The notes under the pieces are model-generated. The model made no database searches. It was given only the letters and a program-made list of their open reading frames with translations, and had not been told where the DNA came from. The translations under genes and the position numbers were made by a program. Below, in pieces: positions 11,560 through 29,278 of a DNA stretch of 30,441 nt. The first letter of the stretch is position 1. Each line of letters opens with the position of its first letter. The DNA is from a virus, in the IMG/VR virus record IMGVR_UViG_3300031801_001120, positions 1 through 30,441 of that record, one strand, 5' to 3'.

Positions 11560-14500
11560 ATGCCTCTCAAAACAGACTTAAACGTAACGCCTTATTTTGA
11601 TGATTATAGTGCGTCGAATAATTTTCAACAAATTTTAGCTAGACCTGGCCAAGCAATTCAGGCTCGAGAATTAACTCAATTACAGAGTATTCTTAGGAAT
11701 CAAAGTGAAAAACTTGGTGACTTTCTTTTACAAGAAGGTACGGTTGTCATACCTGGCAATCTTAAACTAAGTCAAAATATTGATACAATAAAACTTGCAC
11801 CTACTTACGGTGGAGAAACTACAGATGTAACTCAATATCAGGATGCTATATTAACTGGAACAACTACTGGAGTTCAATCAGCAGTAGTACATGTTGAAGC
11901 TGCTACCTCAGATGATCCCCCGACTCTTTTTCTCCGAAATGTTGCTGTTGGTACTGATAATGAAACAAAAGTATTTGCAGCTTCAGAAACTCTTTCTGCT
12001 AATAAAGGAATTACTAATGGATCTACTTCTTATTCTATTGGCGATGTTTCTGCTCAAGTAGCTGAAACACTTCCCAACTTTTCTGGTATTTTAGCAACTA
12101 TGAGTCCAGGCGTTTATTATCTTAGAGGAGGATTTGTTGAAGTAGAAGAAGAGACTTTAACCCTTTCAAAATATTCAAATGGTAATGTTAATGCTAGAGT
12201 TGGGTTCACTATAACTGAGGAAATTATTACACCAGAAGAAGATTCATCTCTTTTGGATAATGCAACTGGTACATCAAACTATGCTGCAAAGGGAGCTCAT
12301 AGAGTAAAAATATCAGTAGCTCTAGCCAAACTCGACGCCGACTCTGATGCTGACAGCAATTTTATACAATTAATGGAACTTAAAGGTGGACGGTCAACAG
12401 CTGAACCCAATAGAGCTCAGTTAGGAACCATACAAGAGACTTTGGCAAGAAGGACTTTTGATGAGTCGGGTGATTATACTGTTCGTCCTTTTATGTATGA
12501 AGCAAAAGAAGCTGTAACTCTGAATGAGAATATAGGAGTGTATGACAAAGGAGATACTACAGAACAAGGAAATACTGCTTCTACTTCTCTCTTATCTATA
12601 AAGGTATCGCCAGGCAAAGCTTATATAAGAGGTAATGAAGTTGAAAAAATGACTAATACCTTTATTGATGTGGATAAAGCAAGAACTTTTGCAAGTGTAA
12701 ATACAGCTTCAACAGCATTTGATATCGGAAATTATCTTAATGTAACAAATGTATATGGAACCCCAGATGTCACTTTTATAACTGGTGAAACAACTCCATT
12801 TAAACAAATCAGTTTGTTTGATACTCCAACTGCTACCAGAGGTAGTTCTTCTGGTACAAGAATTGGAGTTGGTAGAACAAGGACAATGGAATATTCTTCT
12901 GGTACAGTCGGCCCAGAGGCTAATTATAAACTTTATATATTTGATTTCCGTCCCTTTACAATTGTAACTCTCGATGGAACACCAAGTCCTACCCTTGAAG
13001 CAAATCATTCTAATGGAGGCGTACAGATTAAAGGAGATAGTTCTGGTGCTACAGGTTGGGTCTTTGCTGATGGGACATCCGGCACTACTCTTATTTTAAC
13101 AAATGTTTCTGGAACTTTTCAGGCTGATGAAAAAATAACTGCATCAGACTCAGAAGAAACCGATAAAATTGTAGAAACATCAGGCAATACAGATATTACT
13201 ATATCTAGAGCAGTAACTAAAACTGTATCTGAAGCTAGACAAGTACATATGGCTGATGATGATGGTGGACAAAACTTCACTGCTGATATTGTATTAAGTC
13301 CTACTACTACGACAGAATCTTTTCTTTTGTTGAATGGAACAGATTCAGCCGGAGCAGATGTGGATGATCATATTGTTGCAGAGTTAGATACGATTCCTAT
13401 TGGATTAAACCGTGCAACTACCGGCGGTACTGGATCAACTTTAAATCTTGCTAAATTACAATTTGCTGAAAAAAATGCAAGTTTATTTAAACTTAATAAG
13501 AACACTGTTAAAACTCATTTAACCACCAAGAATTCTGGAGCAAGTGATACTTCATATTATCTACGTAGACAATTTATTACAACTTCAAGTGCTTCTGGAG
13601 TTATAACTCTTAGTGCTGGAACTAATGAAGTTTTTAATGCTCATGCTGAAGTGGACTACACATTATCCATACTTTCTGCTGGTGGTGGAGGAACAGGACA
13701 ACAGGGTGATATTATAAGCGCTTCTACTGGATTTTCTGGTGGAGGAACGGCAACTGTTACAGTAACAAATAATGCCGTGTTTGGGAACGGTGCGAAAGTA
13801 AAAATTATTGCAACGCTATTAAAATCTTCTGCAATTGCAAAAACTAAAACGACAAAGTTGATGAAACAAGTAAAGGTTGTGGCTGGTGCAACTGATGCTT
13901 ATGGTACGAGGCCATCAGATAAAACCATTTCTTTAGGAAGGGGAGATGTATTTAAACTTGTAGCAGTACTTGATTCAGAAGATACTGCAGCTGATGCTAC
14001 TGCACCAATTTTAACCATAGGAAGCATCTCTGGAAATTTTGTTAAAGGAGAAGAAATTACTGGTTCATCTTCAGGCGCCGCTGGTAGAATTGTTGATACT
14101 TCAAGTCCAATGTCTTATGTTCTTAAAAGAGGAACGACAGCACAATTTACTACTGCTGATACGATTACAGGATTTTCCAGTGAAGCAACTGCTCCAGTTA
14201 CAGCGGTTACAACTGGTAGTACTAATATTACTGCAAGATATGAGTTAGATACAGGTCAACGAGATAATTATTATGACATTGCTAGAATAGTAAGAAAGCC
14301 CGGAGTTTCTTCTCCATTAGGAAGATTATTAATTATACATGACTATTTGGAACATGGTACTGGAGATTTCTTTACGGTTGACTCGTATATAGATGTTGCT
14401 GATCAAATGACATATGAAGATATTCCCATATACACTGCTACTAAAGTTGACCCAGATGATCCTGCTCCTTCTGGATCATTCCCTCTACAGGATTGTTTCG

Positions 14501-17500
14501 ATATTCGTCCTCGAGCAGAAAATATAGCAGGAACAGCTGTTAGTATTGAAACAGTTGATGAGATAACAGGCAATTCATTCGATTTCTTTAATAGACAATT
14601 TGACGGAACCGGAGCTTCTTTAGTAGATTTTTTAAAACCTAGTTCTTTGATAACAAGTGATTTTGAATATTATCTTCCATATCGAGCATTACTTATAATG
14701 GAACGTAGTGGTAAGATTAACTTCATTAAAGGGGTTTCAACTGAAAGTCCAAGATTGCCGGAGATGGTTGACGGTGCTATGAAATTAGCAGAAGTAACAA
14801 TTCCAGCTTATACATTCAGACCTCAAGATGTAATAATGAAGAGAGAAAAAAATAGACGTTATACCATGAGAGATATTGGTAAGTTAGATGAACGGATGCA
14901 ACATGTGGAATATTATACAGCTCTGAGTTTATTGGAAAGAGATGCTGAAGGCTTTGAGATACAGGATGCTAACGGACTGAATCGTTTTAAATCTGGTTTT
15001 GTTGTTGATGATTTCTCAGGTCATAGAGTGGGCGATGCAAAACATAAAGATTACAAAAACAGTATCGATATGCAGAATAATGAACTTAGACCAACTGCTG
15101 TACCTAAAGGAATTGGTCTGATAGAGGCTGCAACTACGGATGCTGAGAGAGCTAATGTTGGATATCAAAAAACAGGTGATCTTTTAACTCTTCCTTATAC
15201 GGAGGTTGTCTTTACAGAACAGCCTTATGCAACAAGAGTGGAGAGGGTTACTCCTGTTTTAGTTTCTAATTGGGTAGGTACAATTGAACTTGATCCTGCT
15301 GGTGATGAATGGTTTGAAACTGAAGTAGCACCTGATCTTATTATTAATGTTGAAGGTAATTATGATACTTTTTTTGAGGCAAATAAGAGTGCAATTGGTA
15401 CTGTATGGAATGCTTGGCAAACTACTTGGAGTGGTACTTCAGTATCTACAAGTGGTTCGACGGCACCCGGCGGTGTCCAAAGAACAATAACGACAACTCG
15501 TTCTAATTTAGCTAGAACTGGAGTCCAGACAGATATAGTTCCACAAATTGATTTGGAATCTCAGGGCTCTAAAGTAATTCAAAGAGCATTTATTCCATTT
15601 TGTAGAGCAAGAAATATTACCTTTACGGGAACACAGTTTTATCCTAATATGAGACTTTACCCATTTTTTGATAAACAAAGTATTGTAAAATATGTAACAC
15701 CGTTGAGTGGGTTTACTACAGATGCAGCAGATGTTAGTGGTGTTCCTGCTGCTGAATCTCCTTTGATTACAACTGCTTCTGGTCAAATTAAGGGCGTTTT
15801 TGCTCTCCCAGATCCAAGGGTTGCTGGTAATCCTAAATTTAAAACAGGTGAAGTTGAATTTAGACTTACCTCTAGTGTCAAAGATGTTCGTACTAAAGAT
15901 CCAGAAACAGAGGGAACTACCACTTATCAGGCTGTAGGTATTTTAGAAACAGAGCAAGAAACGATTATTGCTACAAGAAACGCTAAATTATTTTCTACAC
16001 CAACATCTCAAAGTACTTCTGTATCCTCTTCAAGTGTAAGGGCTGTCCAGACTCGCTTCAACGAACCTGATTCTGTTTCTGATCCTCTTGCTCAAACATT
16101 CATTGTTGAACAGGATGTTGATAATGAGGTAGATTCTGCTGGAACTAATCGTGCTGAATTTGGTGCCAAATCATCAGGCAGATTTGTAACATCTATTGAA
16201 CTTTACTTTTCTGCGAAAGCTGAGACTTTACCTGTTACAGTAGAAATTAGAACAGTTCAGAACGGATTTCCAGCTTCTAAAATTATGCCTTTTGGTAGAA
16301 CTGTTAAAGAACCAGCTGACGTTACTTTAACTTCAGATGCATCAACTCCCACTAAATTTACTTTCGATTCTCCTGTTTTTCTTCAACATGAAACAGAATA
16401 TTGTTTTGTTGTTATTGCTTCTACACCAGAATATAAAGTCTGGTTATCTAGAATGGGGGAAACTGTTATTGGAGCAGGAGCTGGAAGAACTGTATCTAAA
16501 CAACCACATATTGGTGTGTTATTTAAAGGTCATAATAATAGAACGTGGGCTCCTTCGTTAACTGAAGATTTGAAATTTAAGATGAATGTTGCTAAATTTG
16601 ATACTACAGCAGCAGGAAAAGTAACTTTAAATAATGATGCTGTTGATTCTAGACGATTGGACGAACATCCCCTTATATTTACTAATGGTAGTACAACTTT
16701 GTTGGTCAACCACTCAAACCATCAAATGTATTCTACTTCAAATAATGTTACTATATCTGGAGTTGTATCTGAGGCAGAAACTACTCTTGCTGCAGCGTTG
16801 GATGCAACTGCAACCACATTAACATTAACCTCTGGAACAGATTTTGACGATACTTCTGGAAAGTACGCCTATGATAGTAGCAGTTTGTGGTGGATAAAAA
16901 TTGATGATGAAATTATGAAGTATACTACTATTAGTGGTACAGCTGTCTCCAGTATAACTAGAGGAGAAGATAGTACTTCTGCGACTACACATGCAGATGG
17001 AGCTACAGTAAAATTGTATATGTTACATAAGGTTCCTTTCACAGAAATCAATAAAACACACACTTCTCTTTCAAATATTAATATTGATTCATATACTGTT
17101 GCTTTAACAAGTTCACCCACAATAACTGGAGGTTCGACTGATGCTTCAAATGGTGGTTCTGAGGTTTATGCATCTGAAAATGCTAGTTTTGATGTTGGCC
17201 TACCAGCAGTGTCAGTAATGGAACTTCCAGCAACAAGTGTAACTGCAAAAATTAGGCCTATGACAAGTACAAGTCCTTCTGGTTCACAAACTTCATTTTT
17301 GACTACAGCTGAAGTAGACGCAATCGAAATAAACTTGAATGATAATGAGGAATATGATACTCCTTATATGATTGCCTCACCAATTAATGAAACAAATGAA
17401 AATGGTGGAGTCAAATCTTTGATAATAGATAATGTTCTTGTTTCCTCAAATTCTGATGTAACACCCATTATTGATCTGGGCAGAATGTCATTTATTGCAG

Positions 17501-17970
17501 TAGGTAATAAATTGAATAAAATAGATTCTTCTTCCGATGTATATCCCACCACAGATTTTATAGCATCAACGGAACCTGATGGAGATAATAATGCTAACAT
17601 TTATTTGACTAAGAAAGTGACTCTTGAAAATGCAGCAACTGCTCTTAAAGTATTTTTTGCTGGGCACAGACATTCTACTGCGACTATCAAAGCTTACTAT
17701 AAGATTTTAAGAACTGATGATGCATCAGAGTTTGATGATTTAGGATATGTTGCTTTTAATAGTGATGGGTCGCCGGATTCGGCAACACAAAATGCTACGA
17801 CTAAAGAGACTTTTGCTCAATTTGTGTATACGGCTGGAGTAACGGATGATGGTGTAGGTACACCTTTGGATGAGTTTATTTCTTTTCAAATTAAAATTGT
17901 ATTACAAGGAACAAATACAGCAGAACCACCTCGTATTAAAGAATTGAGGTGCTTAGCATTGGCAATGTAA
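11560..17970 (+). CDS. Giant DUF4815-like virion/baseplate protein
   Basis: This is one frame of 2136 residues. The N-terminus (LNVTPYFDDYSASNNFQQIL, then RPGQAIQARELTQLQSILRN and GTVVIPGN) is the DUF4815 signature seen in marine T4-like and other phages. Later conserved blocks are RPFMYEAKEAVTL (about 307), LSIKVSPGKAYIRGNEVEK (about 346-364), VSNWVGTIELDPAGDEWFET with GTVWNAWQTTWSG (about 1235-1295), and a C-terminal domain with LPVTVEIRTVQNGFPASK and EYKVWLSRMGET (about 1560-1635). A segment near 1785-1815 reads IKIDDEIMKYTTISG...SITRGED, a module common in tail proteins. Inserted stretches carry an NGTD unit near 13330 and two GExITGSSSGAA-type units. Its position after gp8 suggests the T4 gp10-type part of the wedge or fibre network; this is inferred. 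Its length is well above that of typical relatives. Confidence 0.75.
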   Translation: MPLKTDLNVTPYFDDYSASNNFQQILARPGQAIQARELTQLQSILRNQSEKLGDFLLQEGTVVIPGNLKLSQNIDTIKLAPTYGGETTDVTQYQDAILTGTTTGVQSAVVHVEAATSDDPPTLFLRNVAVGTDNETKVFAASETLSANKGITNGSTSYSIGDVSAQVAETLPNFSGILATMSPGVYYLRGGFVEVEEETLTLSKYSNGNVNARVGFTITEEIITPEEDSSLLDNATGTSNYAAKGAHRVKISVALAKLDADSDADSNFIQLMELKGGRSTAEPNRAQLGTIQETLARRTFDESGDYTVRPFMYEAKEAVTLNENIGVYDKGDTTEQGNTASTSLLSIKVSPGKAYIRGNEVEKMTNTFIDVDKARTFASVNTASTAFDIGNYLNVTNVYGTPDVTFITGETTPFKQISLFDTPTATRGSSSGTRIGVGRTRTMEYSSGTVGPEANYKLYIFDFRPFTIVTLDGTPSPTLEANHSNGGVQIKGDSSGATGWVFADGTSGTTLILTNVSGTFQADEKITASDSEETDKIVETSGNTDITISRAVTKTVSEARQVHMADDDGGQNFTADIVLSPTTTTESFLLLNGTDSAGADVDDHIVAELDTIPIGLNRATTGGTGSTLNLAKLQFAEKNASLFKLNKNTVKTHLTTKNSGASDTSYYLRRQFITTSSASGVITLSAGTNEVFNAHAEVDYTLSILSAGGGGTGQQGDIISASTGFSGGGTATVTVTNNAVFGNGAKVKIIATLLKSSAIAKTKTTKLMKQVKVVAGATDAYGTRPSDKTISLGRGDVFKLVAVLDSEDTAADATAPILTIGSISGNFVKGEEITGSSSGAAGRIVDTSSPMSYVLKRGTTAQFTTADTITGFSSEATAPVTAVTTGSTNITARYELDTGQRDNYYDIARIVRKPGVSSPLGRLLIIHDYLEHGTGDFFTVDSYIDVADQMTYEDIPIYTATKVDPDDPAPSGSFPLQDCFDIRPRAENIAGTAVSIETVDEITGNSFDFFNRQFDGTGASLVDFLKPSSLITSDFEYYLPYRALLIMERSGKINFIKGVSTESPRLPEMVDGAMKLAEVTIPAYTFRPQDVIMKREKNRRYTMRDIGKLDERMQHVEYYTALSLLERDAEGFEIQDANGLNRFKSGFVVDDFSGHRVGDAKHKDYKNSIDMQNNELRPTAVPKGIGLIEAATTDAERANVGYQKTGDLLTLPYTEVVFTEQPYATRVERVTPVLVSNWVGTIELDPAGDEWFETEVAPDLIINVEGNYDTFFEANKSAIGTVWNAWQTTWSGTSVSTSGSTAPGGVQRTITTTRSNLARTGVQTDIVPQIDLESQGSKVIQRAFIPFCRARNITFTGTQFYPNMRLYPFFDKQSIVKYVTPLSGFTTDAADVSGVPAAESPLITTASGQIKGVFALPDPRVAGNPKFKTGEVEFRLTSSVKDVRTKDPETEGTTTYQAVGILETEQETIIATRNAKLFSTPTSQSTSVSSSSVRAVQTRFNEPDSVSDPLAQTFIVEQDVDNEVDSAGTNRAEFGAKSSGRFVTSIELYFSAKAETLPVTVEIRTVQNGFPASKIMPFGRTVKEPADVTLTSDASTPTKFTFDSPVFLQHETEYCFVVIASTPEYKVWLSRMGETVIGAGAGRTVSKQPHIGVLFKGHNNRTWAPSLTEDLKFKMNVAKFDTTAAGKVTLNNDAVDSRRLDEHPLIFTNGSTTLLVNHSNHQMYSTSNNVTISGVVSEAETTLAAALDATATTLTLTSGTDFDDTSGKYAYDSSSLWWIKIDDEIMKYTTISGTAVSSITRGEDSTSATTHADGATVKLYMLHKVPFTEINKTHTSLSNINIDSYTVALTSSPTITGGSTDASNGGSEVYASENASFDVGLPAVSVMELPATSVTAKIRPMTSTSPSGSQTSFLTTAEVDAIEINLNDNEEYDTPYMIASPINETNENGGVKSLIIDNVLVSSNSDVTPIIDLGRMSFIAVGNKLNKIDSSSDVYPTTDFIASTEPDGDNNANIYLTKKVTLENAATALKVFFAGHRHSTATIKAYYKILRTDDASEFDDLGYVAFNSDGSPDSATQNATTKETFAQFVYTAGVTDDGVGTPLDEFISFQIKIVLQGTNTAEPPRIKELRCLALAM
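13321..13383 (+). repeat. NGTD-type repeat unit in the DUF4815-like protein
   Basis: One unit reading FLLLNGTDSAGADVDDHIVA lies within the DUF4815-like protein. It is the same type as the units of the giant protein at 2839, showing that the module has spread between virion genes. Confidence 0.65.
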
Positions 17971-17971
17971 A

Positions 17972-18214
17972 ATGATAGATGGAGAATTACAACATATACC
18001 AGTGGAAGGCCGGGATGATCTGGTTAGAACTACGGATGGCAGCCATGCAATTGTAAACCGTAATCGTAATGCATATGAAATGGCAAAAAAACGTGCGGCT
18101 GATGCTCAAGCACAAAGAGATGAGATAAGAAATACAACAAGAGAGATAAATACTTTGAAATCTGAGATGCATGAAATAAAAAATCTCTTACAAGAACTGG
18201 TAGGTAAACAATAA
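17972..18214 (+). CDS. Small coiled-coil protein, 80 residues
   Basis: The ATG lies one base after the previous stop, and the TAA overlaps the next start (TAATG). The N-terminal half (ELQHIPVEGRDDLVRTTDGS, then AIVNRNRNAYEMAKKRAADA) is polar. The C-terminal half is helical, with heptad-like hydrophobics (INTLKSEMHEIKNLLQELV), suggesting a short coiled coil. There is no signal or membrane segment. Small proteins of this kind occur between structural genes in marine T4-like phages, and coupling to the fibre gene suggests an adaptor or assembly helper. The function is unknown. The GATAAATA at 18145-18152 within it is a weak late-box candidate for the next gene. Confidence 0.75.
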   Translation: MIDGELQHIPVEGRDDLVRTTDGSHAIVNRNRNAYEMAKKRAADAQAQRDEIRNTTREINTLKSEMHEIKNLLQELVGKQ

Positions 18215-20508
18215 TGGCAATTACAGGTTCAACAGTAACAGCAAATCAATCTCTAGAAGAATTCAGATTAGAGTTTAATAAAATTGTAAGTGATGTATCT
18301 CAACTAGAAAGTAATCCTACTTATGGTACTTCTCTTATCTTTGAAGGTGCTACAGATGATGCATTTGAAACCACTTTTACCGTTGCAGATCCATCGGCGG
18401 ATCGTACTGTAACGGTTCCAGATGCAGATGGAACAATTCTATTAACTGGAGCTGCTTCATTTGCAGTTGCCGATGGAGGAACCCTTGGTTCATCTACAAC
18501 TGCTGATGCAATGACGATTGCAAGTGATGGTGTTGTTACATTTGCTTCTTCTCCTGCTTTTACATCAATCTCTTCTGGTTCTACTTTTACAATAGATGCA
18601 ACTACAGATATTATTTTAGATGCAGATGGTGGAGATGTGTTCCTTAAAGACGCTGGATCTACTTTTGGTAGTTTAACAAACACATCTGATAATCTTATTA
18701 TAAAATCAGGCACAACTACAGCCGCAACATTTTCTGGTGCAAACACAACATTAGCAGGAACTTTGGGTGTTGGTGCAATAACAACAACTGGTGCCTTTAA
18801 AGGTGCTGATGGTTATACAATCGGTAACGCTTCAGTTGCAGATATCATGACTCTTGCTTCTACTGGCATTGTAACATTTAAAGATGATATTGTTTTAAAG
18901 AATGATGCCACAATTGGAAGCGCTGGTGCAGCAACAGCAATGACGATATCTTCTGGTGGTATCGTAACCTTTGTAGATGACATCAAGATTAAAGATGGCG
19001 GTACAATTGGTACTGCTACTACTCCTGCTGCAATAACAGTTGCCGCTGCCGGAGCTCTCACATTAAGTGGAAGAAGTGTTCACTCTGCTGGTATTACTGT
19101 TGCAGATGATGGAGAGATTGGTTCTACTTCTGACCCAAATGCGATTGCAATTAGTTCTGCTGGTATTGTTACCCTTAGTAGCAGTACTGCTTCTTCAAGT
19201 AAGACTACTGGTGCGTTGGTTGTCACTGGCGGTATTGGTACAAGTGCAGACCTTTATGTTGGTGATCTTTTAAATGTAGAAGGCGGTATTAATATCGCTG
19301 GATCAAACCAAGAATTACGTTTCTATGAAGGTGCAAATTATGTTGGATTTGAGGCACCAGCATTAAGTGCAGATCAAATTTGGGTATTACCAGCGTCCGA
19401 TGGTTCGGATGGTAATGTGTTGGTTACTGACGGTTCTGGTACAACGACATGGAGTTCTGCTGTTTCTGGTACTGCGGGCAATATTACAATCAATGCAAAT
19501 AACTCTACTGATGAAACTGTGTATCCAGTATTTGTTGATGGAGCTACAGGTGGTCAAGGCCTTGAATCTGATACAGGATTAACCTATAATCCTAGTAGTG
19601 GAATTTTAACAAGTACAAAATTTAATGGAACACTTACTGGTAATGTTATTGTGGCAAATGATGGGAATATCGGTTCTGTTGGTGATTCAGACTCCGTTGC
19701 TATAGATTCAAGTGGTAATTGGACTTTTAGTCAGAATTTAACTGTTACAGGTGTTACTACTCTTAACGGTAACTTGGTTCTAGGTGATGCAGCTGCAGAC
19801 ACACTAACAATTGGAGCAACTTTAGTAGGAGGCAGTCCTCTGATCTTTGAGGGTGCAACTGCTGATGGAAATGAGACTACCTTTGCAATTACAGACCCAA
19901 CTGGAGATCGTACTATTACATTTCCTGATCAAACTGGTACTGTGCATACCACTGGTGGAACAACAACTCATACTGCAATTTTAATTGCAGATGCTGGAAC
20001 TATCGGTTCTGCATCAGACCCCAACGCAATCGGAATAACTGCTGGTGGTGTTGTATCTGTTACTGCAACTACTGCTTCCACAAGTGCTACTACTGGTGCA
20101 TTGACGGTTGCTGGTGGTGCAGGTGTTGCTGCTGATTTGGGTGTTGGAGATGATCTCTTTATGATTTCTGATGGTGCAGTTATTACCTTTGGTGCTAACT
20201 CTGAGATTAAATTAACACACGTTCATGATACTGGACTTCAAATGACTTCGACAGTTTATGCTCCTCTGTCTCGTAGAGGTGAGGATACGTTTATTGTCTT
20301 AGATCAAACAGCCGCAGCTGGAACTGATGCTGGTGATAATGTTATCATGGATAGAAGTGCTGCTGATGGAACTGATGCTGGTGATGACATTATTGGTGAG
20401 GATGAAGTATTCTTACACTCAGGTATGCAAAGAAATGTTATTCAAATTGTTGGTTCTGATGGAAAGGTTAAAAATTCTGTAGCAGGATTTGCGCCAGGAG
20501 CAATTTAA
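18214..20508 (+). CDS. Tail-fibre-like protein with beta-rich repeats
   Basis: This is a 764-residue, Gly/Ala/Thr-rich protein. The N-terminus (TANQSLEEFRLEFNKIVSDV) is a short helix, followed by the module IFEGATDDAFETTFTV...DRTVTVPDADGTILLTG (about 42-79). Residues about 85-430 contain repeated units of 30-40 residues of the type DGGTIGTA...AITVAAAGALTL, plus two longer copies beginning IGSTSDPNAIAISSAGIVTL and IGSASDPNAIGITAGGVVSV, each followed by TTGAL-V-GG. A second FEGATAD module is at about 545-580. The end carries KLTHVHDTGLQMTS, two TAxxGTDAGD units and a short helical tail. This is typical of long trimeric fibres built of beta-helix or beta-prism repeats; host recognition is inferred. 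The DNA codes for the three MORN proteins directly after it. Confidence 0.75.
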   Translation: MAITGSTVTANQSLEEFRLEFNKIVSDVSQLESNPTYGTSLIFEGATDDAFETTFTVADPSADRTVTVPDADGTILLTGAASFAVADGGTLGSSTTADAMTIASDGVVTFASSPAFTSISSGSTFTIDATTDIILDADGGDVFLKDAGSTFGSLTNTSDNLIIKSGTTTAATFSGANTTLAGTLGVGAITTTGAFKGADGYTIGNASVADIMTLASTGIVTFKDDIVLKNDATIGSAGAATAMTISSGGIVTFVDDIKIKDGGTIGTATTPAAITVAAAGALTLSGRSVHSAGITVADDGEIGSTSDPNAIAISSAGIVTLSSSTASSSKTTGALVVTGGIGTSADLYVGDLLNVEGGINIAGSNQELRFYEGANYVGFEAPALSADQIWVLPASDGSDGNVLVTDGSGTTTWSSAVSGTAGNITINANNSTDETVYPVFVDGATGGQGLESDTGLTYNPSSGILTSTKFNGTLTGNVIVANDGNIGSVGDSDSVAIDSSGNWTFSQNLTVTGVTTLNGNLVLGDAAADTLTIGATLVGGSPLIFEGATADGNETTFAITDPTGDRTITFPDQTGTVHTTGGTTTHTAILIADAGTIGSASDPNAIGITAGGVVSVTATTASTSATTGALTVAGGAGVAADLGVGDDLFMISDGAVITFGANSEIKLTHVHDTGLQMTSTVYAPLSRRGEDTFIVLDQTAAAGTDAGDNVIMDRSAADGTDAGDDIIGEDEVFLHSGMQRNVIQIVGSDGKVKNSVAGFAPGAI
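20290..20400 (+). repeat. Two tandem TDAGD units at the fibre C-terminus
   Basis: Two units (LDQTAAAGTDAGDN and MDRSAADGTDAGDD) follow each other. They share an exact 18-base stretch at 20320-20337 and 20368-20385. A similar unit, LDRTAAGGADAGDK, is in the giant protein near 5310. Confidence 0.7.
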
Positions 20509-21195
20509 ATGGGGGATAATGATTTAGAATATACCTTTGATAATGGAGATCATTATGTTGGTGAGTGGAAGAATGGTAAGATGCATGGCCAAGGAATCTT
20601 TACCCATAACGATGGAAACAAATATGTTGGTGAATTCAAGGATGGTAAAAAGAACGGACAAGGCACCTTAACCCTTACTGAAGGTTTCGGGTTTGAAGGA
20701 GACAAATACGTTGGTGAATGGAAAGATGACAAACCTCATGGCTATGGCACTGAAATTATTAGTCCTAATGGTAGGTTTGCAGGGAACAAATACGTTGGTG
20801 AGTGGAAGAATGGTAAACAACATGGCCACGGCACTGCGACTTCTCCCGAAGGACAAAAATACGTTGGTGAATACAGGGATGGTAAATGTCATGGTAAAGG
20901 TACACATACCTATACCAATGGAAATAAATATATCGGCGATTTCAAGGAAGGTAAAATGCAAGGCCAAGGCGTTCATATCTTTGCTGATGGGGAAAAGTAT
21001 GAAGGTGAATTTAAGGATGATAAATTTAGTGGACAAGGTACATATACATTAATTCTTTCAGAGGATTCCAAGAAAAAATATGTTGGCCAATGGAAGGATA
21101 ACAAAGCACACGGACAGGGTATTACTTATGGCGTTGGTGGAAAAGTGTATCAAGAAGGAATATTTGAAAACGGCCACTTTTTGAATGGGGTTTAG
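20509..21195 (+). CDS. MORN-repeat protein 1, 228 residues
   Basis: The protein is almost entirely MORN repeats. After a leader, DLEYTFDNGD, there are eight good units of the form KYVGEWKNGKxHGxGTxT-x-x-G plus one degenerate unit at the end (EGIFENGHFLNG). Most units are 23 residues; units two, three and seven carry small insertions (for example GFGFEGD). MORN repeats fold as stacked beta-hairpins and in eukaryotes often lie at membranes or act as dimerisation scaffolds. There is no signal peptide, transmembrane helix or added enzyme domain. The ATG directly follows the fibre stop, with AGGAG at 20496-20500, so it is co-translated with the fibre. The role is unknown; a virion appendage, a fibre chaperone or a membrane-binding protein are possible. 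Confidence 0.85.
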   Translation: MGDNDLEYTFDNGDHYVGEWKNGKMHGQGIFTHNDGNKYVGEFKDGKKNGQGTLTLTEGFGFEGDKYVGEWKDDKPHGYGTEIISPNGRFAGNKYVGEWKNGKQHGHGTATSPEGQKYVGEYRDGKCHGKGTHTYTNGNKYIGDFKEGKMQGQGVHIFADGEKYEGEFKDDKFSGQGTYTLILSEDSKKKYVGQWKDNKAHGQGITYGVGGKVYQEGIFENGHFLNGV

Positions 21196-21204
21196 ATACA
21201 AAAA

Positions 21205-22356
21205 ATGGATAATAATGAATTAGAATATACTTGGGACGAAGGGTTTCGTGCTGGAGAAAAATATGTAGGGGAATGGAAGGATTACAAACCCCACGGACAT
21301 GGCACCTATACCTTTGCCGATGGAGATGAATATGTCGGTCAATGGAAAGAGGGCAATCAACACGGACAAGGCACCGTAACCAATACTAATAGAGACAAAT
21401 ATGTAGGTCAATGGAAGAATGGTAAATACCACGGCCAAGGTATTGAAACCTTTGCTGATGGGGGTAAGTACGTTGGTGAATTCAAGAACGGAATATATCA
21501 TGGATTAGGCACCGTGACCTACGCCAATGGGAACAAATATGTTGGCCATTGGAAGGATGGTAAAGAAGACGGATTCGGCACCGTGACCTATCCTACTGGA
21601 AGAAAATATGTCGGTGAACTTACAGACGGTGATAGACATGGCCGAGGCACTCTTACCTATCCAGATGGAAACATATACATTGGCGATTTCAAGGAAGGTA
21701 AAATGCATGGTCAAGGCACTTTTACCCATCCCAATGGATCGAAATACGAGGGCGAATGGAAGTCTGGCCAACCCAACGGACATGGTATTGAAACCTTTGC
21801 TGATGGGGGTAAACATATCGGTGGATACAAGGATAATCAAAAGCATGGACAAGGAATTTTTACCTATGCTGATGGGTCGAAATATGATGGTGAGTGGAAG
21901 AATGGTAAATGGCATGGGAAAGGTGTCTTTACTAAGCCCACTGGAAGAAAATATGTTGGTCAATATATAAACGGTAAACCTGATAGACAAGGTACTTATA
22001 CCTTTGACGATGGAAGAGTGATGGAAGGTATATGGGAGGATAAAGAATTGATCTCTCACAAGAATGGCAAACCTAACGGAATAGGTACTTTTACCTTTGC
22101 TAATGGGGTTAAATATATCGGTGAATGGAAGGATGCCCTATTTCATGGATACGGCACCCTTATTTTTGGTAATGGAGACAAATACGTCGGTGAATTTAAA
22201 AATGGTCAATCACATGGGGAAGGTATTGGTTATGGTGCTGATGGTAAAATACGCCAATCGGGCCTGTGGAAGAACGGTCAATTTGATTCGTTATTGGAGT
22301 TCACCCATACAGAAAGGGTGGATGCAACTGGTCACGTAAATGCTAGTGTGATATAA
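21205..22356 (+). CDS. MORN-repeat protein 2, 383 residues
   Basis: The leader NELEYTWDEGFRAGEKYVGE is followed by about thirteen good MORN units and two degenerate ones. The unit near residues 272-300 carries an insertion (EDKELISHKNGKPNG). The last unit (IRQSGLWKNGQFDS) is degenerate, and a non-repeat tail of about 25 residues (FTHTERVDATGHVNAS) ends the protein. It lies nine bases after MORN protein 1 with only a weak ribosome binding site (a G-rich stretch at 21187-21190), so coupling to the first gene is likely. The His/Lys/Trp-rich repeat faces could bind acidic lipids or glycans, as proposed for other MORN proteins; nothing in the sequence proves this. No enzyme domain is present. Confidence 0.85.
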   Translation: MDNNELEYTWDEGFRAGEKYVGEWKDYKPHGHGTYTFADGDEYVGQWKEGNQHGQGTVTNTNRDKYVGQWKNGKYHGQGIETFADGGKYVGEFKNGIYHGLGTVTYANGNKYVGHWKDGKEDGFGTVTYPTGRKYVGELTDGDRHGRGTLTYPDGNIYIGDFKEGKMHGQGTFTHPNGSKYEGEWKSGQPNGHGIETFADGGKHIGGYKDNQKHGQGIFTYADGSKYDGEWKNGKWHGKGVFTKPTGRKYVGQYINGKPDRQGTYTFDDGRVMEGIWEDKELISHKNGKPNGIGTFTFANGVKYIGEWKDALFHGYGTLIFGNGDKYVGEFKNGQSHGEGIGYGADGKIRQSGLWKNGQFDSLLEFTHTERVDATGHVNASVI

Positions 22357-22359
22357 ATA
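22352..22359 (+). promoter_or_regulatory. Late promoter box TATAAATA before MORN protein 3
   Basis: A perfect TATAAATA overlaps the TAA stop of MORN protein 2 (22354-22356) and is 17 bases ahead of the MORN protein 3 ATG. It suggests late expression, in step with virion genes. Confidence 0.75.
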
Positions 22360-22376
22360 GAAAGAATGGAAAAAAA

Positions 22377-23312
22377 ATGTCTGATAACGAATTAGAATAT
22401 ACTTGGGATGAAGGGCCACGTGCCGGAGAAAAATACGTTGGAGAATGGAAGAATTACAAATTCCACGGTAAGGGCAAATATTATTACATGAATGGGGCTA
22501 CATATGAAGGTCAGTGGAAGGATGGAGAATACCACGGAAAAGGCCACTTTATCTATCCTGATGACGTTCCAGATGAGCTCGAAGAATGGGGAGCACCTGT
22601 AGCGAGTATTGATCCTGACATACCTAAGTCTCACGACGAACTGCGGGCTGACCACGGGTGGGCCCACCCTCCTGGCGGTTGCAGAATGGAAAATGGTGCG
22701 TATTATGGGGAAAGTTACGAAGGTGAATACAAGAATGGTAAAGCACACGGAAAGGGTACATATATTTCTAACAATGGGATGAAATATGTTGGTGAATTTC
22801 AGAACGGTTTAAAGCACGGAAAAGGTACGTTGGACTTACCTAATGGAAACAAATACGTTGGCGAATTCAAGAATGAATGGAGACACGGACAAGGCATTCA
22901 AACTGATGCTGATGGAAGAGTGAAAGAAGGGATGTTTGAAAAGGATACTCAACATGGTCAAGGCATCACAACCTTTGCTAACGGAGACACATACGAAGGG
23001 GAATTCAGAATGGGTGCAAAGTGGGGTCATGGCACTTATACTGTTTTTAATGGTGGCACATATGTTGGTGAATGGAAAGAAGGTATCCAACATGGCCAGG
23101 GTGTTGAAATTTGGGTAAATTCAACTGGTAAGAAAGATAAATATGAAGGTGAATTTAAGAACGGCAAACCAAATGGTCAAGGAACATATACCTACAGTGA
23201 TGGGAAAAAACATGAAGGCGAATGGAAGGACGGAGATTATATCCAAATGGGATCTATAGTAATAGATGAAGGTGAACTTCGTTCAAAAAGAGAAGAGGAA
23301 GGTAAAAAATAA
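22377..23312 (+). CDS. MORN-repeat protein 3 with inserted segment, 311 residues
   Basis: The leader NELEYTWDEGPRAGEKYVGE is nearly identical to that of protein 2. Two MORN units follow, then a 50-residue non-repeat insertion (about 61-111) that is acidic, Pro-rich and has HGWAHPPGGC. Seven to eight further units follow (SYEGEYKNGKAHGKGTY onward). The C-terminus (IVIDEGELRSKREEEGKK) is charged and helical. The His and Cys residues of the insertion are the only candidates for a metal site in the three proteins. The start is an ATG with a weak GGA-rich site; a late box lies upstream. Its TAA overlaps the next start (TAATG), tying it to a virion-like gene. The function is unknown. Confidence 0.85.
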   Translation: MSDNELEYTWDEGPRAGEKYVGEWKNYKFHGKGKYYYMNGATYEGQWKDGEYHGKGHFIYPDDVPDELEEWGAPVASIDPDIPKSHDELRADHGWAHPPGGCRMENGAYYGESYEGEYKNGKAHGKGTYISNNGMKYVGEFQNGLKHGKGTLDLPNGNKYVGEFKNEWRHGQGIQTDADGRVKEGMFEKDTQHGQGITTFANGDTYEGEFRMGAKWGHGTYTVFNGGTYVGEWKEGIQHGQGVEIWVNSTGKKDKYEGEFKNGKPNGQGTYTYSDGKKHEGEWKDGDYIQMGSIVIDEGELRSKREEEGKK

Positions 23313-24259
23313 TGGCTTCTAGAAATTTACTATACGTTGATGACAATAATGATCTTGCGGAAATGTCTAGTGCAGAAATGGTAGAGATACAGAAAAGAAT
23401 GATCTATGCTTATAGTGTTACTCCATCAGCGGTCATAACACAGGTTAGCGATAGTGGTGCAAATATAGCTTCTATGGATGATACCAGACAAAAAGCTGGT
23501 GCAACTTCACAGTCTGCCTCGGCCTTTGTTGCAGAAGGTACAACTGCTGAACCTGGCACTGTTACTGTAACATATGATAAAATAAATTTAGCATATACAA
23601 CAAGTGATGTTGGTCACACTACTGACACTGGAACAACCTTTCCTGTATATTATGACGGTAGTGGGAACATTCAATCTTGTTCTCTTACTGATTTGAAGGA
23701 TACTCTTATTTACGATTGCATTGATCTTCTTGTTTCTGGTACAGAGAGTGCAACTACAGCAGGAACATATACAATAACTGATTCAGCAACTGCTGCTTCA
23801 AATTATACTAATGTTTCAACCACAGCAGTTTTCACAGATACACGAGCAGATACAGATGAATATTCAGCTGCGGGCATTCCAGAAACATTAGATCAACCGA
23901 CTACTATCACGAATTATTATCTTCATGAGAGAGATGGAGTAGCTAATACTCCCAGTAGGATGCCGGTAGTTGTTAACGCCAGTAATGATTTGGCGGAAAT
24001 GTCTAATTCTACTATAGATTCTGTTTTAGGGGATTGGTTAAGATATACAGCTGCTAATGATGGTGATGGATATAAAATTGTATATACAGTAGCAACTTCT
24101 GGTGGTAACACTAGAGGAACTGCTATGGTAGACACTAGATTAGATGGTGCCGGTAATTATCAGACATTGCAGTCTGGAGATGATTATCGATCTCAGGAAT
24201 TTCCAAATGGATCATCTGGGACGGTTACTACGTATAATTTACGTATAAATAAAGGATAG
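23312..24259 (+). CDS. Virion-like protein with internal duplication, 315 residues
   Basis: This is a Thr/Ser/Ala/Asp-rich protein with short beta-like stretches. The N-terminal motif LLYVDDNNDLAEMSSAEM (about 5-22) recurs as VVVNASNDLAEMSNSTI at about 219-235, each followed by a Tyr-rich helix (MIYAYSVT; WLRYTAAN). So the protein seems to be a fused or duplicated two-domain form. The ending, YRSQEFPNGSSGTVTTYNLR, is a beta strand. Proteins of this composition are common among marine myovirus tail appendages, so a structural role is inferred. The ATG overlaps the MORN protein 3 stop. Its last codons hold the late box of the next gene. Confidence 0.6.
   Translation: MASRNLLYVDDNNDLAEMSSAEMVEIQKRMIYAYSVTPSAVITQVSDSGANIASMDDTRQKAGATSQSASAFVAEGTTAEPGTVTVTYDKINLAYTTSDVGHTTDTGTTFPVYYDGSGNIQSCSLTDLKDTLIYDCIDLLVSGTESATTAGTYTITDSATAASNYTNVSTTAVFTDTRADTDEYSAAGIPETLDQPTTITNYYLHERDGVANTPSRMPVVVNASNDLAEMSNSTIDSVLGDWLRYTAANDGDGYKIVYTVATSGGNTRGTAMVDTRLDGAGNYQTLQSGDDYRSQEFPNGSSGTVTTYNLRINKG
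24244..24251 (+). promoter_or_regulatory. Late promoter box TATAAATA before the 168-residue gene
   Basis: A perfect TATAAATA lies in the last codons of the 315-residue gene, 17 bases ahead of the ATG at 24269. AGGAG (24258-24262) lies in between. Confidence 0.75.
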
Positions 24260-24817: not shown

Positions 24818-26176
24818 ATGAATATATTAGGTATATCTGAAGGATTTCATGACGCAGCAATTTGTTTGATTCGAAATAGTACAAAAATTCATTATGCTTC
24901 TTCTAGTGAAAGATATAGTGGTATAAAAGGTGATAAGTGGGTTCATGCAGACCAATTTCCCAGAAGTCCTAGTAATCAAGCTAACGTAGTTGCATATTAC
25001 GAAAAACCTTTCCGTAAAAATTTAAGACGATTATATGCTGGTCAGAAGTGGCAAACTCCACGACTCAAGTATGATTGGTGTTACGGTCATCATGAATCCC
25101 ATGCAGCTGCTGGATATTATACCGCACCATTTGACGATTGTAATGTTTTGGTTATAGATGCTATTGGAGAGTGGGATACTATTTCTATATGGGAAGGGAA
25201 AAAAACTCATTTAAAAAAGATCAAGTCTTGGAAATATCCATACTCTCTTGGTCTTCTCTATTCTGCAATCACACAAAGTATTGGACTGAAACCCAATGAG
25301 GATGAATATATCACTATGGGTATGTCGGCATTTGGTGAACCAATATACGATCTAAGTGAATTGTTATGGGAAAATAATCATAGAGGAGCAAGAGAAATAT
25401 GGAAAGATAAATGGCAGGGGTATCATATAAAGGAAGAAGACCTTGCTGCTTCTGTGCAAGCTCTATATGAGAAGGAATTTCTAAAACTTGTGGAGATGTG
25501 TCCCAAGAAAAACTTAGTTATTATGGGAGGGTGTGCTTTAAACTGTGTTGCAAACTCCAAGATAAAAGGAAAGAATATTTGGATTATGCCTGCTCCTGGC
25601 GATGCTGGTAGTTCTTTAGGTGCGGCCGCATTAGTATTAAAAGAAAAATTGGAATGGAAACATCCTTATCTTGGGTATAATATATTAAAAAAAATTAATA
25701 CAAATTCAGTTGTTAAAGAGCTTCTGAAAAATAAAGTTGCTGGTGTTGCAAATGGAAAAGCAGAGTTTGGCCCAAGGGCGTTGGGAAACCGTTCTCTTCT
25801 TGGTGATCCTCGATATGATATAAAAGATACTGTGAATGAGATTAAACAGAGGCAGAAATTTCGTCCCTTTGCTCCAGCAATATTATCGGAATTTGCAGAC
25901 GAATATTTCGACGGCCCAATGAATGAGTATATGCAGTTTGTTGCAAAGGCAAAACACGATTTTAAATCTGTTACTCATGTTGATGGTACAGCAAGAGTAC
26001 AGCTGGTAAAGAAGAATTGTGGTTCTATTATTAGGTCTATCTTGGAAGAATGGTTTGAACAAACTGGATGCCCTATGTTATTGAACACATCTCTTAATAT
26101 TAAAGGTAAACCTATAGTAAATACGTGGGACGATGCAGAGGAATTTTCAAAGAAATATAATGTCAATGTTTTCTAA
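24818..26176 (+). CDS. Carbamoyltransferase (NodU/CmcH/TobZ family)
   Basis: This is a 452-residue protein with both family domains. The Kae1-like N-terminal part opens with NILGISEGFHDAAICLI. It has the metal-binding HHESHAAAGYY at 91-101, LVIDAIGEWD at 111-120, YSAITQ with a GLKPNEDEY-TMGMSAFGE run, GGCALNCVAN at 237-246 and the GDAGSSLGAA loop at 261-270. The YrdC-like C-terminal part has FGPRALGNRSLLGDPR at 317-332, RPFAPAIL and CPMLLNTSLNIKGKPIV at 418-434. Such enzymes make carbamoyl-adenylate from carbamoyl phosphate and ATP, then carbamoylate a hydroxyl, usually of a sugar or antibiotic. It is shorter than TobZ (about 570 residues), missing linker and end pieces but no key motif. It is cytosolic. 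The substrate is unknown; sugar-related neighbours suggest a glycan. GGAG lies five bases before the ATG. Confidence 0.9.
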   Translation: MNILGISEGFHDAAICLIRNSTKIHYASSSERYSGIKGDKWVHADQFPRSPSNQANVVAYYEKPFRKNLRRLYAGQKWQTPRLKYDWCYGHHESHAAAGYYTAPFDDCNVLVIDAIGEWDTISIWEGKKTHLKKIKSWKYPYSLGLLYSAITQSIGLKPNEDEYITMGMSAFGEPIYDLSELLWENNHRGAREIWKDKWQGYHIKEEDLAASVQALYEKEFLKLVEMCPKKNLVIMGGCALNCVANSKIKGKNIWIMPAPGDAGSSLGAAALVLKEKLEWKHPYLGYNILKKINTNSVVKELLKNKVAGVANGKAEFGPRALGNRSLLGDPRYDIKDTVNEIKQRQKFRPFAPAILSEFADEYFDGPMNEYMQFVAKAKHDFKSVTHVDGTARVQLVKKNCGSIIRSILEEWFEQTGCPMLLNTSLNIKGKPIVNTWDDAEEFSKKYNVNVF

Positions 26177-26963
26177 ACGTAAAAAATTAATCATAGGAGG
26201 GTGTTCGTATACTGATAATTATGCAAAGAAACACAAGATGCCCGAATTTCCTATATGGGGAGAATTACTAGCAGATAAGTTAGATATGGATTTGATTAAT
26301 CTTGCAAGGTGTGGTTTTGGTAATCAAGCAATATACACTACTATATTAGAAAGAACATTAAAAGAGAAAAATGTTGGACTTATAGTAGCTATGTGGTCTG
26401 AAGTTCAGAGATTAAACATCTACAAAAATACACAACTCAACCCCAAATGGCAACATTATAATTGGCAATGTTTTCATCCAGACAGAATTGTTTTGGACGC
26501 AGAATGGCATGATCAATTTTATAAACCCCCATCAAAAAATCCTAAAAAATCTGGACTACAATGGGATGTTAGTAATGTATATAGAGACTATGATATAGAT
26601 TGTATTAAGGGAGCTACTATTTCTTCTTTAAGTTTTATGTATTCTTTTCAGAATTTTTGTGAGGCAAATGATATACCGTATTTACAGGTACAAGGTTGTC
26701 AACCATTAATGGGTAAGTCAGAACCTACACAGAATATTCAGTATAAAGAATTTTGTAATCTTATTATTAATAGCCCCTATGTGGATAAAATTAAAGATAC
26801 ATTTTTAGGGTGGCCTATCGATCCTCGTATTGGTGGTTATAGTATTGATTCTAAATTAGAAGATGAACATAGATTTGCTCCAGAAGATACACATCCAAAT
26901 GAAATTGGACATAAATTTATAAGTGAGGTTTTGTATAATGCAATTAATAGCAAGTGGTTGTAG
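26160..26963 (+). CDS. SGNH-type hydrolase-like protein 1
   Basis: Read from ATG 26160 it has 267 residues; the frame is open further upstream (to 26133), but a start there would cut deeper into the carbamoyltransferase gene. The start gives MSMFSKRKKLIIGGCSYTDN, a strand followed by the nucleophile Ser16 in GGCS (block I). Block II is RCGFGNQ (about 50-56). In place of block III's GxND there is VAMWSEVQRL. The end has DTHPNEIGH (block V; Asp243, His245). FQNFCEAN and LGWPIDPRIGGYSIDSKL are shared with paralogue 3. SGNH enzymes hydrolyse or transfer acyl or acetyl esters; the substrate is unknown, with glycan O-acetyl groups a possibility. There is no signal peptide, so it acts in the cytosol or on virion parts. 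It overlaps the carbamoyltransferase stop by 17 bases. Confidence 0.75.
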   Translation: MSMFSKRKKLIIGGCSYTDNYAKKHKMPEFPIWGELLADKLDMDLINLARCGFGNQAIYTTILERTLKEKNVGLIVAMWSEVQRLNIYKNTQLNPKWQHYNWQCFHPDRIVLDAEWHDQFYKPPSKNPKKSGLQWDVSNVYRDYDIDCIKGATISSLSFMYSFQNFCEANDIPYLQVQGCQPLMGKSEPTQNIQYKEFCNLIINSPYVDKIKDTFLGWPIDPRIGGYSIDSKLEDEHRFAPEDTHPNEIGHKFISEVLYNAINSKWL

Positions 26964-27666
26964 TTTTACAGAAAATGTGCTTGTGGAAGATCCGTGGCCT
27001 AATCGTTTAGCAAATAAGTTAGGAGCGAAACTTACAAATTTAGGAGCAGGAGGAAGAGGGAACGAGTATATTTTTAATATGGCATTTGATAACTTAGATA
27101 AAGCAGATTTAATGGTTGTTATGTGGTCAAGTTTTGATAGGTGGGATTTTGTTAATAATACGTTTGAGATTCCGTATCTATTGGCAGATGGTGGTACTAT
27201 GCCACGAAGGAATGAACTTATAGATAATACTACTGGAAAACCAGCAAATTTGTATTTAGCAGAAAATAAATTTGTAACAGCTTCTAGGGCGTTAGTAAAT
27301 GCAAGATGTGTTGATCCTCGGCATCAGATTAAAAAGAGCTTGAGATGGATGGTTGCATTACAAGATATATGTAAACAAAAAGAGGTGCCTCTTATAATGA
27401 GTATGGGGTTTTTACATTGCACAAAACTTGAGGACACAGAGGTTGCAAAGACTTTTACAAACTTTTCAAGATTTTTTGATTTAGAAGGAACAATAGGTTG
27501 GCCCTATAGTTATCTTTTAGATGGTTTTACACTACATGATAAAATGAGAGAACATGGGACTGATATGTGTATATCAGAATTTGACGAACACCCTAATGAA
27601 TTAGGGTGTGAATTAATTAGTGAGGTTTACTATGATGAATATAAAAAGATGTATCCTAAAGGTTAG
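26938..27666 (+). CDS. SGNH-type hydrolase-like protein 2
   Basis: This has 242 residues from ATG 26938; an in-frame GTG at 26923 is better read as part of the ribosome binding site (GTGAGG). Block I is LIASGCSFTEN with Ser9, block II is GAGGRGNEYIF (about 36-46), and block III is replaced by VVMWSSFDRWDF. Block V is DEHPNELGC (Asp216, His218), where the final His of its paralogues is a Cys. IGWPYSYLLDGFTLHDK aligns with the GWP...GG motif of paralogues 1 and 3. The catalytic residues appear intact, so I expect esterase or acyltransferase chemistry on an unknown substrate. It overlaps paralogue 1 by 26 bases, and the codons for SEV near the end of paralogue 1 supply its Shine-Dalgarno sequence. 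It is more like paralogue 3 in its N-terminal half. Confidence 0.75.
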   Translation: MQLIASGCSFTENVLVEDPWPNRLANKLGAKLTNLGAGGRGNEYIFNMAFDNLDKADLMVVMWSSFDRWDFVNNTFEIPYLLADGGTMPRRNELIDNTTGKPANLYLAENKFVTASRALVNARCVDPRHQIKKSLRWMVALQDICKQKEVPLIMSMGFLHCTKLEDTEVAKTFTNFSRFFDLEGTIGWPYSYLLDGFTLHDKMREHGTDMCISEFDEHPNELGCELISEVYYDEYKKMYPKG

Positions 27667-27817
27667 ATTATTTTTGTCAACTTTGTATATGCGGCCGCAT
27701 AAAGAAGAAAAGGGTTTCATATATGAATTCAACGATGAAGAGTTTAAAGAACTTCCAACAGAAGAACAAGCTAAAGAAGTTCAAAAAAATTGGAATAAAC
27801 ATATGAGAGAAAAGTGA
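27632..27817 (+). CDS. Small acidic-tailed protein between SGNH genes
   Basis: From ATG 27632 (or the adjacent ATG 27635) it has about 61 residues. The ribosome binding site GTGAGG (27620-27625) lies in the end of SGNH gene 2, at the same place as in the previous junction. The N-terminal 20 residues (MNIKRCILKVRLFLSTLYM) are hydrophobic and basic. The rest (KGFIYEFNDEEFKELPTEEQ, AKEVQKNWNKHMREK) is charged and helical. The N-terminal part could be a membrane anchor, or the true start may be ATG 27689, giving a 42-residue soluble protein without that segment but also without a clear ribosome binding site. The function is unknown. Its TGA overlaps the GTG start of SGNH gene 3. Confidence 0.5.
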   Translation: MMNIKRCILKVRLFLSTLYMRPHKEEKGFIYEFNDEEFKELPTEEQAKEVQKNWNKHMREK

Positions 27818-28539
27818 AAAATCAAATTTTAATGGTTGGAGATAGTTGGACAGCCGGAACTAGAATACAAGCTCTTGGATTTAATACCTGGCCTATCTGG
27901 CCGGAGTTAATTGCCAAGAAGTTGAATATGACTTTTAAAAATTATGCTGATGGTGGCAGAGGAAACGAGTTCATATACAATCAAGTAATAGATAACTATG
28001 ATGGTGAAGAATTAATTATCGTTTTATGGAGTCATTATGATCGTTGGGATTTTGCTCATTATTCTTTATCATGTAATCCCTACCGTGGAAAGGATGCATA
28101 TGATGGCGATGATCCGACTTCTAGAGAAAAAAAAGAAAAGATATTTGATGTTTTGATGGAGACAGAATTATTAAATGCAAAATATAATTTTAATAAAAGT
28201 ATCAGATGGATCCATGCTTTTCAAAATTTTTGTGAAGCCAATAAAATAAAGTATATGCAAGCACAAGCCTTTCATCCAGCATGGGAGTTAGATCAATGGA
28301 ATGGTATTAATCATTTTGTTGATAGCCCCTTATTATATTACATAGATGAAACTCATTTTTTAGGTTGGCCCCTGTTTAAACAAATTGGTGGTTTTACTAT
28401 GTCAGATAAATTAGATGAAGTTGATCCAGATCAATCTAAACTTAGAGTCAACTTTATGTATGATCCACATCCAAATGAAGAAGGTCATAAGTATATAACA
28501 GAACTATTTTATAAGTTCTATAGAGGTTTATATGATTGA
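27814..28539 (+). CDS. SGNH/GDSL hydrolase-like protein 3
   Basis: This has 241 residues from a GTG start that overlaps the previous stop (GTGA). The ATG at 27832 is in frame but would remove the first beta strand (KNQILMVGDSW), so GTG is preferred. Block I is the classic GDSWTAG (Ser11), block II is ADGGRGNEFIYN (about 45-56), and the third block is VLWSHYDRWDF as in paralogue 2. The C-terminus has DPHPNEEGH (Asp217, His219). IRWIHAFQNFCEANKIKYMQ and FLGWPLFKQIGGFTMSDKL match paralogue 1. The catalytic Ser, Asp and His of an SGNH enzyme are present; block III lacks the usual GxND Asn. The substrate is unknown. The following glycosyltransferase starts within its last codons. Confidence 0.8.
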   Translation: MKNQILMVGDSWTAGTRIQALGFNTWPIWPELIAKKLNMTFKNYADGGRGNEFIYNQVIDNYDGEELIIVLWSHYDRWDFAHYSLSCNPYRGKDAYDGDDPTSREKKEKIFDVLMETELLNAKYNFNKSIRWIHAFQNFCEANKIKYMQAQAFHPAWELDQWNGINHFVDSPLLYYIDETHFLGWPLFKQIGGFTMSDKLDEVDPDQSKLRVNFMYDPHPNEEGHKYITELFYKFYRGLYD

Positions 28540-29278
28540 AAATACTATATTATGTGTGAGATGGGGTGACAAATATGATCACACTTATGTAGAAAATTTA
28601 AAGAAACAGTGTGAGAATAATTGTTCAGTACCATTTAACTTCTATTGTCTAACAGATAATCCAACACAATCTTACGACATTCAACTTCCTACAACATGGG
28701 ACAAATACTATTTGTCTGATAGAAATTTCTTTTGGGCATATCGTAAGTGTTATATGTTTTGTATAGATGAAGAACCTGATAAGAACTTTTGGAAAATTGA
28801 GGGCGATAAGTTTCTGTTCCTAGACCTTGACGTTATTATTCATCAAGATTTAAAATATTTCTTTGACCTTTCTATGGATAAACCATATATTGTAAGAGGA
28901 TGGTGGAATAATATTGATGTTGTTAAACGTAATTTTTCAAAACATAAATCAACTCCATTAAACTCTTCTGTGATTCGATGGAACCGTGGCCAATTAAAAA
29001 AAATATGGAAAGAGATTGAAAAGAATGCTGAGATTATTTTCTACACATATCCGAGCTTAGATAATTATCTTAATCATCATTGGTACAATCTGTGGAAAGA
29101 GGATGAAGGATTTTTTAGAGGATTTCCACAGGGAGATACATATTCTTGGTTTAAAGGGAACATATATCCAGATGATATGGAACGTAGAAAAGTGAGAAAG
29201 GATCATAAAATTTGTTTGTTTAACAATAGTTCCTATGGAGAGGGTATGAACGATAAAGAGATCGAAGATTTATGGTAG
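28532..29278 (+). CDS. DxD glycosyltransferase-like protein
   Basis: This is a 248-residue protein. The N-terminal strand-helix unit (ILCVRWGDKYDHTYVENLKK) and VPFNFYCLTDN fit the nucleotide-sugar fold of GT-A enzymes. FLFLDLDVIIHQDLK holds the metal-binding DLD at 98-100. RGWWNNI, NSSVIRWNRGQLKKIW and a late FRGFPQGDTYSWFKG with HKICLFNN are typical later parts of this family, which occurs in several marine phages. It lacks a signal peptide or transmembrane helix, so it would act in the cytosol. It probably adds a sugar to an unknown acceptor such as a glycan precursor or virion protein. It is coupled on both sides: its ATG lies within the end of SGNH gene 3 (AGAGG at 28522-28526) and its stop overlaps the methyltransferase start. 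Confidence 0.75.
   Translation: MIENTILCVRWGDKYDHTYVENLKKQCENNCSVPFNFYCLTDNPTQSYDIQLPTTWDKYYLSDRNFFWAYRKCYMFCIDEEPDKNFWKIEGDKFLFLDLDVIIHQDLKYFFDLSMDKPYIVRGWWNNIDVVKRNFSKHKSTPLNSSVIRWNRGQLKKIWKEIEKNAEIIFYTYPSLDNYLNHHWYNLWKEDEGFFRGFPQGDTYSWFKGNIYPDDMERRKVRKDHKICLFNNSSYGEGMNDKEIEDLW

Follow-up and report, generated by a model that had tools for sequence, protein, structure and literature searches.

Comparison with related phages strongly supports the view that three tandem MORN-repeat genes in a marine myovirus are an insertion that separates two genes adjoining each other in relatives. The genes lie in the window, by which we mean the entire 30,441-nucleotide stretch analysed (positions 1 to 30,441 of IMG/VR virus record IMGVR_UViG_3300031801_001120). 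The trio appears to be a recent, late-expressed addition to the host-recognition region. A preliminary description had reported the three genes; that every examined relative lacks the insertion is new with respect to that reading.

All features given here are on the + strand. MORN1 (20509..21195; 228 aa, 8 MORN units) starts directly after the fibre stop codon and is followed by MORN2 (21205..22356; 383 aa, 14 units) and MORN3 (22377..23312; 311 aa, 9 units), the last with a non-MORN insert at approximately residues 64-112. Multiple units of ~23 residues scored above the gathering cut-off of Pfam MORN (PF02493), with E-values of 1e-49, 2e-85, and 3e-55 for MORN1, MORN2, and MORN3. Profile searching thus upheld the family call in all three ORFs, and the description as three near-pure MORN proteins stands with its coordinates exact. 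Its unit counts were 8, 13, and 9, of which the outer two hold; 14 were counted in the middle gene, close to 13. No Pfam family besides MORN was matched by any of the three, in agreement with the earlier claim that they carry no enzyme domain. A six-frame scan of the contig (E<=1e-3) returned 31 MORN units, every one within these ORFs, and no match arose when 900 shuffled versions of MORN1-3 were searched with a MORN profile derived from the window.

The three proteins are paralogues, 38-48% identical to each other and with a common N-terminus, MxDN(E/D)LEYT. On sequence evidence the trio is under purifying selection (paralogue dN/dS ~0.27-0.31, with dS near saturation). All three matched PHROG 7324 (E 1e-32 to 2e-56), a repeat-level family of phage MORN proteins of unknown function whose members, where found, stand in differing contexts. 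Single-protein and alignment queries recovered no close viral relatives of the trio, only repeat-level matches. A tblastn search of INPHARED gave two remote records only, although low-complexity filtering perhaps hides repeats.

The window represents part of the genome of a myovirus of the Kyanoviridae/pelagimyophage type. It encodes T4-type baseplate proteins (gp25-like, gp6, gp8-like, and a VrlC-type protein), and the presence of such genes in the flanks ruled out a eukaryotic or giant-virus origin. The nearest isolates, at only 47-49% gp6 identity, are the Kyanoviridae phages Melnitz (host OM43), Mosig, and HTVC008M (host SAR11), so that a marine bacterium is the presumed host. In pelagimyophages, a hypervariable host-recognition cluster begins after VrlC and also contains many non-structural cargo genes (PMC7029224). 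The large VrlC-type baseplate protein of the window (11560..17970; 2136 aa) lies upstream of the MORN trio, which occupies the position of this cluster. The resemblance extends to the tail fibres and cargo cassettes that follow VrlC, but the term "MORN" is absent from the main text of PMC7029224 and the searched relatives are without MORN. Gene order is kept in relatives (gp8-like, VrlC, small virion protein, fibre, ORF 23312, ORF 24269, cargo genes), while the length of the fibre gene is very variable. Farther downstream, the window encodes a Nol-like carbamoyltransferase (phrog_1601; 24818-26176), frequent at the same place in relatives, and a row of small genes (26133-29946). At least those starting at 26133, 26923, and 27814 are SGNH/GDSL-hydrolase-like (GCSxT/GxGN motifs), with the Pfam GDSL score of 27814 slightly under the cut-off.

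The gene before the cassette encodes a tail-fibre-like protein (18214..20508; 764 aa), ending in ..SVAGFAPGAI before the stop. This bears out the upstream half of the earlier placement in a tail-fibre region, whereas the "virion-like" label for the downstream gene derives from position only. That downstream gene, ORF 23312 (23312..24259; 315 aa), is a conserved fibre-following gene, and its use as a search query yielded 71 relatives (loci L014-L084). A fibre gene directly abuts the ORF 23312 homologue in 48 of the 57 scored IMG/VR relatives (gap -1 to 37 bp); the upstream gene in these slots is nearly always fibre-like, and 15 of the 48 show a one-base overlap into ORF 23312, as in the window. 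No MORN gene stood between the two in any of the 57. Five relatives (L015, L016, L018, L036, and L052) share the fibre end of the window, NS(V/L)AGFAPGAI, and in these ORF 23312 starts at the fibre stop. MORN1 of the window begins at the very base at which these relatives begin ORF 23312, and at the other end the MORN3 stop overlaps the ORF 23312 start (TAATG). A search of 50 whole relative records, many of them fragments but with the three isolate genomes included, likewise found no MORN. Only one copy of the cassette is known. Relatives that lack it retain both ORF 23312 and the same C-terminus of the fibre; the fibre can therefore do without the cassette.

Composition also sets the trio apart. 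GC3 is 0.316 in MORN1, 0.350 in MORN2, and 0.338 in MORN3, against 0.195-0.216 expected from the amino acids of each gene and the codon usage of the phage's structural genes (z = 5.0, 8.3, and 5.9 relative to structural genes). By this codon measure the trio is compositionally foreign. No donor is named, because the best cellular matches are ~50% identical and spread over many phyla.

The claim that these are late genes was supported; MORN3, in addition, has a T4-type late promoter of its own. The T4 late promoter core, TATAAATA, occurs at four sites in the window, and each of them lies 25-39 bp ahead of a gene start (gp25, 9316, MORN3, and 24269). The chance of all four preceding starts is, by position, ~0.0228^4, or ~3e-7, with the overlapping matches at 9277 and 9283 taken as one site. 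The MORN3 site (22352..22359) lies 25 bp before the start and overlaps the MORN2 stop; that before ORF 24269 is at 24244..24251. In relatives, the motif occurs 136 times on the coding strand and 19 times on the other. There it precedes structural genes and homologues of 9316, 10061, and 24269, but none of 144 downstream cargo-gene starts. It precedes only 1 of 62 ORF 23312 homologues, so the late promoter of MORN3 is absent from the empty site. None of the late promoters found precedes MORN1, whose likely ribosome-binding site, CAGGAG, lies inside the 3' end of the fibre gene. At both ends the cassette is coupled to phage genes.

Like a moron, the trio consists of extra genes of deviating composition between genes that are adjacent in relatives. 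A classical autonomous moron has its own promoter and terminator, and here a late promoter is present before MORN3 only. The cassette is moron-like by position, not an autonomous classical moron.

AlphaFold prediction, one of the checks originally proposed, gave for MORN2 alone an array of beta hairpins (mean pLDDT 87) that matches MORN1 crystals. Eleven units form the first hairpin array, followed by a break near residues 278-291 and ~3 more units. The best PDB matches are the MORN1 proteins of T. brucei, T. gondii, and P. falciparum (6t4r, 6t6q, 6t69, and 6t4d), at 37-42% identity and a target-normalised TM of 0.86-0.92; for MORN2 only, the predicted fold is the antiparallel hairpin array of these crystals. 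Like the phage proteins, the eukaryotic ones are near-pure MORN with a matching fold. They are encoded by a single gene, however, and an antiparallel dimer has been shown for them. MORN repeats mediate protein-protein interaction and dimerisation (PMC7725318).

The view of MORN as a mainly eukaryotic, lipid-touching module fared poorly. MORN relatives are encoded in 255 stretches of bacterial and archaeal genomes, SAR11 included. Direct tests detected no attachment of T. brucei MORN1 to membranes or vesicles; the protein does interact with single phospholipids, and phosphatidylethanolamine co-purifies with it (PMC7725318). By analogy, the lack of membrane or vesicle binding weakens the idea that the phage proteins touch lipid, and lipid binding should not be assumed for them.

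Most cellular MORN proteins sampled have a signal-like N-terminus. Judged by the hydrophobicity of the N-terminus rather than by a signal-peptide predictor, a strongly hydrophobic N-terminal stretch is present in 72 of the 92 cellular MORN proteins that have four or more units. By the same measure none of MORN1-3 has one, and so they lack the N-terminal signal sequence of exported bacterial MORN proteins. This suggests that the phage proteins act in the cytoplasm or in the particle. Among other viral MORN proteins, a hydrophobic N-terminus was found on one contig only (L098/L104). Exported MORN proteins of marine bacteria, SAR11 among them (L119, L120, L146, L173, and L124), are near-pure arrays, sometimes in tandem pairs, and ~40-53% identical to the phage proteins. 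They differ in having a signal-like N-terminus where the phage proteins begin with the MxDN(E/D)LEYT motif. The pairs in SAR11-type genomes (L119 5782-7431, L120 5719-7464) directly adjoin and have signal-like N-termini.

ORF 23312 may itself belong to the fibre. In its predicted structure (pLDDT 87) a beta-beta-alpha-beta unit occurs three times; hhalign gives probabilities of 94, 72, and 59 when the copies are compared pairwise. No Pfam or PHROG family matched its sequence, and no entry in PDB or BFVD matched its predicted fold. In some relatives it follows the other fibre-like gene (9316) instead, which indicates that it travels with fibres. Three copies in a protein next to a fibre that is presumably trimeric would fit a cap or adaptor, and we regard the family as a candidate fibre cap/adaptor with a new fold, as modelled.

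Scans found ~20 MORN-bearing viral contigs. In other marine phages, MORN proteins occur in tail settings in L189/L190 and L088. In the L189/L190 myophage, which is unrelated to the window, a 431 aa MORN protein is encoded downstream of the tail sheath gene and directly after the tail-tube gene, before a family that directly follows the tube in some relatives. It has a C-terminal non-MORN part, and its N-terminal ~30 residues (LNEEINRMKSLF..ERL.GNLV) recur on neighbouring genes, including the next one. This tag, LNEEINRMKSLFTEERLFGNLV, stands on several differing proteins after the tail tube (L189/L190 5881-7176 onward; L191-L209), also in relatives without MORN. Its recurrence on neighbours and on the post-tube genes of MORN-free relatives suggests a shared targeting or assembly tag, which might direct proteins to the virion or mark them for processing.

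L087, L088, and L090 encode a probable tail lysin (L088 75-3113, L090 4650-7094) in which blocks of MORN repeats are joined to peptidoglycan-binding and phage tail-lysozyme domains. MORN is here part of a probable tail-associated protein, as it may be in the window, but fused to these other domains. MORN genes of L093, L095, L096, and L103 lie outside obvious tail operons; for these and L188 a structural context was absent or unclear. MORN therefore recurs in tail settings of phages and is not confined to them. Two further arrangements were seen: tandem MORN genes of 13 and 17 units (L104 7890-10292), flanked by two ~600 aa genes and with a signal-like N-terminus on the first of the pair; and a phage protein of >2,190 aa in its locus (frame 2,979 aa) with four mid-protein MORN repeats (L102 1-6588). 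Searches of the literature on phage virion MORN proteins turned up nothing relevant except a remark on MORN in phage endolysins.

We read the cassette as a set of late, cytosolic, paralogous beta-sheet proteins that probably serve as a fibre- or tail-associated accessory, and we put the odds of this reading at about even. A few MORN paralogues would have been acquired by a pelagimyophage-like ancestor and placed precisely where the fibre gene meets the following gene, within the host-recognition cluster. MORN1 would be translated from the ribosome-binding site in the fibre 3' end and MORN3 transcribed from its own late promoter, with ORF 23312 staying coupled through the TAATG overlap; on these three features, the trio would be made with the late tail proteins. 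Each protein is predicted to fold as a long, flat beta-hairpin sheet without enzyme domain or signal peptide. MORN1-3 would likely self-associate, as known MORN1 proteins do, and would most likely assemble with the fibre or its partner into an accessory virion element, such as a rod, plate, or bracket, that would alter fibre reach or presentation. Virion location, fibre contact, and dimerisation are the steps that we infer.

The main rival to this accessory tail role is intracellular cargo. Since the host-recognition cluster of pelagimyophages holds non-structural cargo, position alone is insufficient for a virion role. Late in infection the MORN proteins could act inside the cell, where they would serve as scaffolds or bind host proteins, and could be mere passengers in the late operon of the hypervariable region. 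Foreign composition and the lack of a signal peptide would fit such a role, as would the cargo enzymes in which the downstream region is rich (carbamoyltransferase and SGNH-like genes), the phage MORN genes found away from tail genes, and the nature of MORN repeats as protein-protein interaction modules (PMC7725318). The trio, however, lies between two tightly linked fibre genes and not in the cargo part, and its type of late promoter precedes structural rather than cargo genes. We consider this reading possible, if tentative.

Within the tail, MORN1-3 might amount to a new kind of appendage, in which rigid, repeat-built sheets are anchored either on the fibre or on the pseudo-threefold protein of ORF 23312; the sheets could be swapped as a cassette, and gain or loss of 23-residue units would change their length. 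We regard this as rather unlikely. An assembly chaperone or adhesin is often the product of the gene that follows a fibre gene in T4-type phages. Together with the tight coupling of MORN1 to the fibre gene, this would suit chaperones or temporary brackets for fibre folding or attachment that are absent from the mature particle, but relatives with the same fibre C-terminus manage without MORN and three proteins would be many for an assembly aid, making such a role improbable. An assembly chimera with misjoined bacterial MORN DNA, or a transient, functionless passenger, is very improbable: the differing composition, the single contig, and the report that MORN repeats break short-read assemblies (PMC9238414) are outweighed by the two junctions, which coincide precisely with gene boundaries and are translationally coupled, by three frames that are open and show dN/dS ~0.3, by the late promoter inside the cassette, and by the lack of signal peptides that most sampled bacterial MORN proteins have.

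These findings correct the view of such repeats as mainly eukaryotic lipid modules. With clean empty and filled sites to hand, fibres of the same kind can be compared directly in cassette-bearing and cassette-free form. If the proteins are not in the virion, the trio is still a clearly delimited insertion of late cargo in a group of phages that is abundant in the ocean. If they are, MORN repeats would have to be counted among the building blocks from which phages make or lengthen the structures that contact the host.
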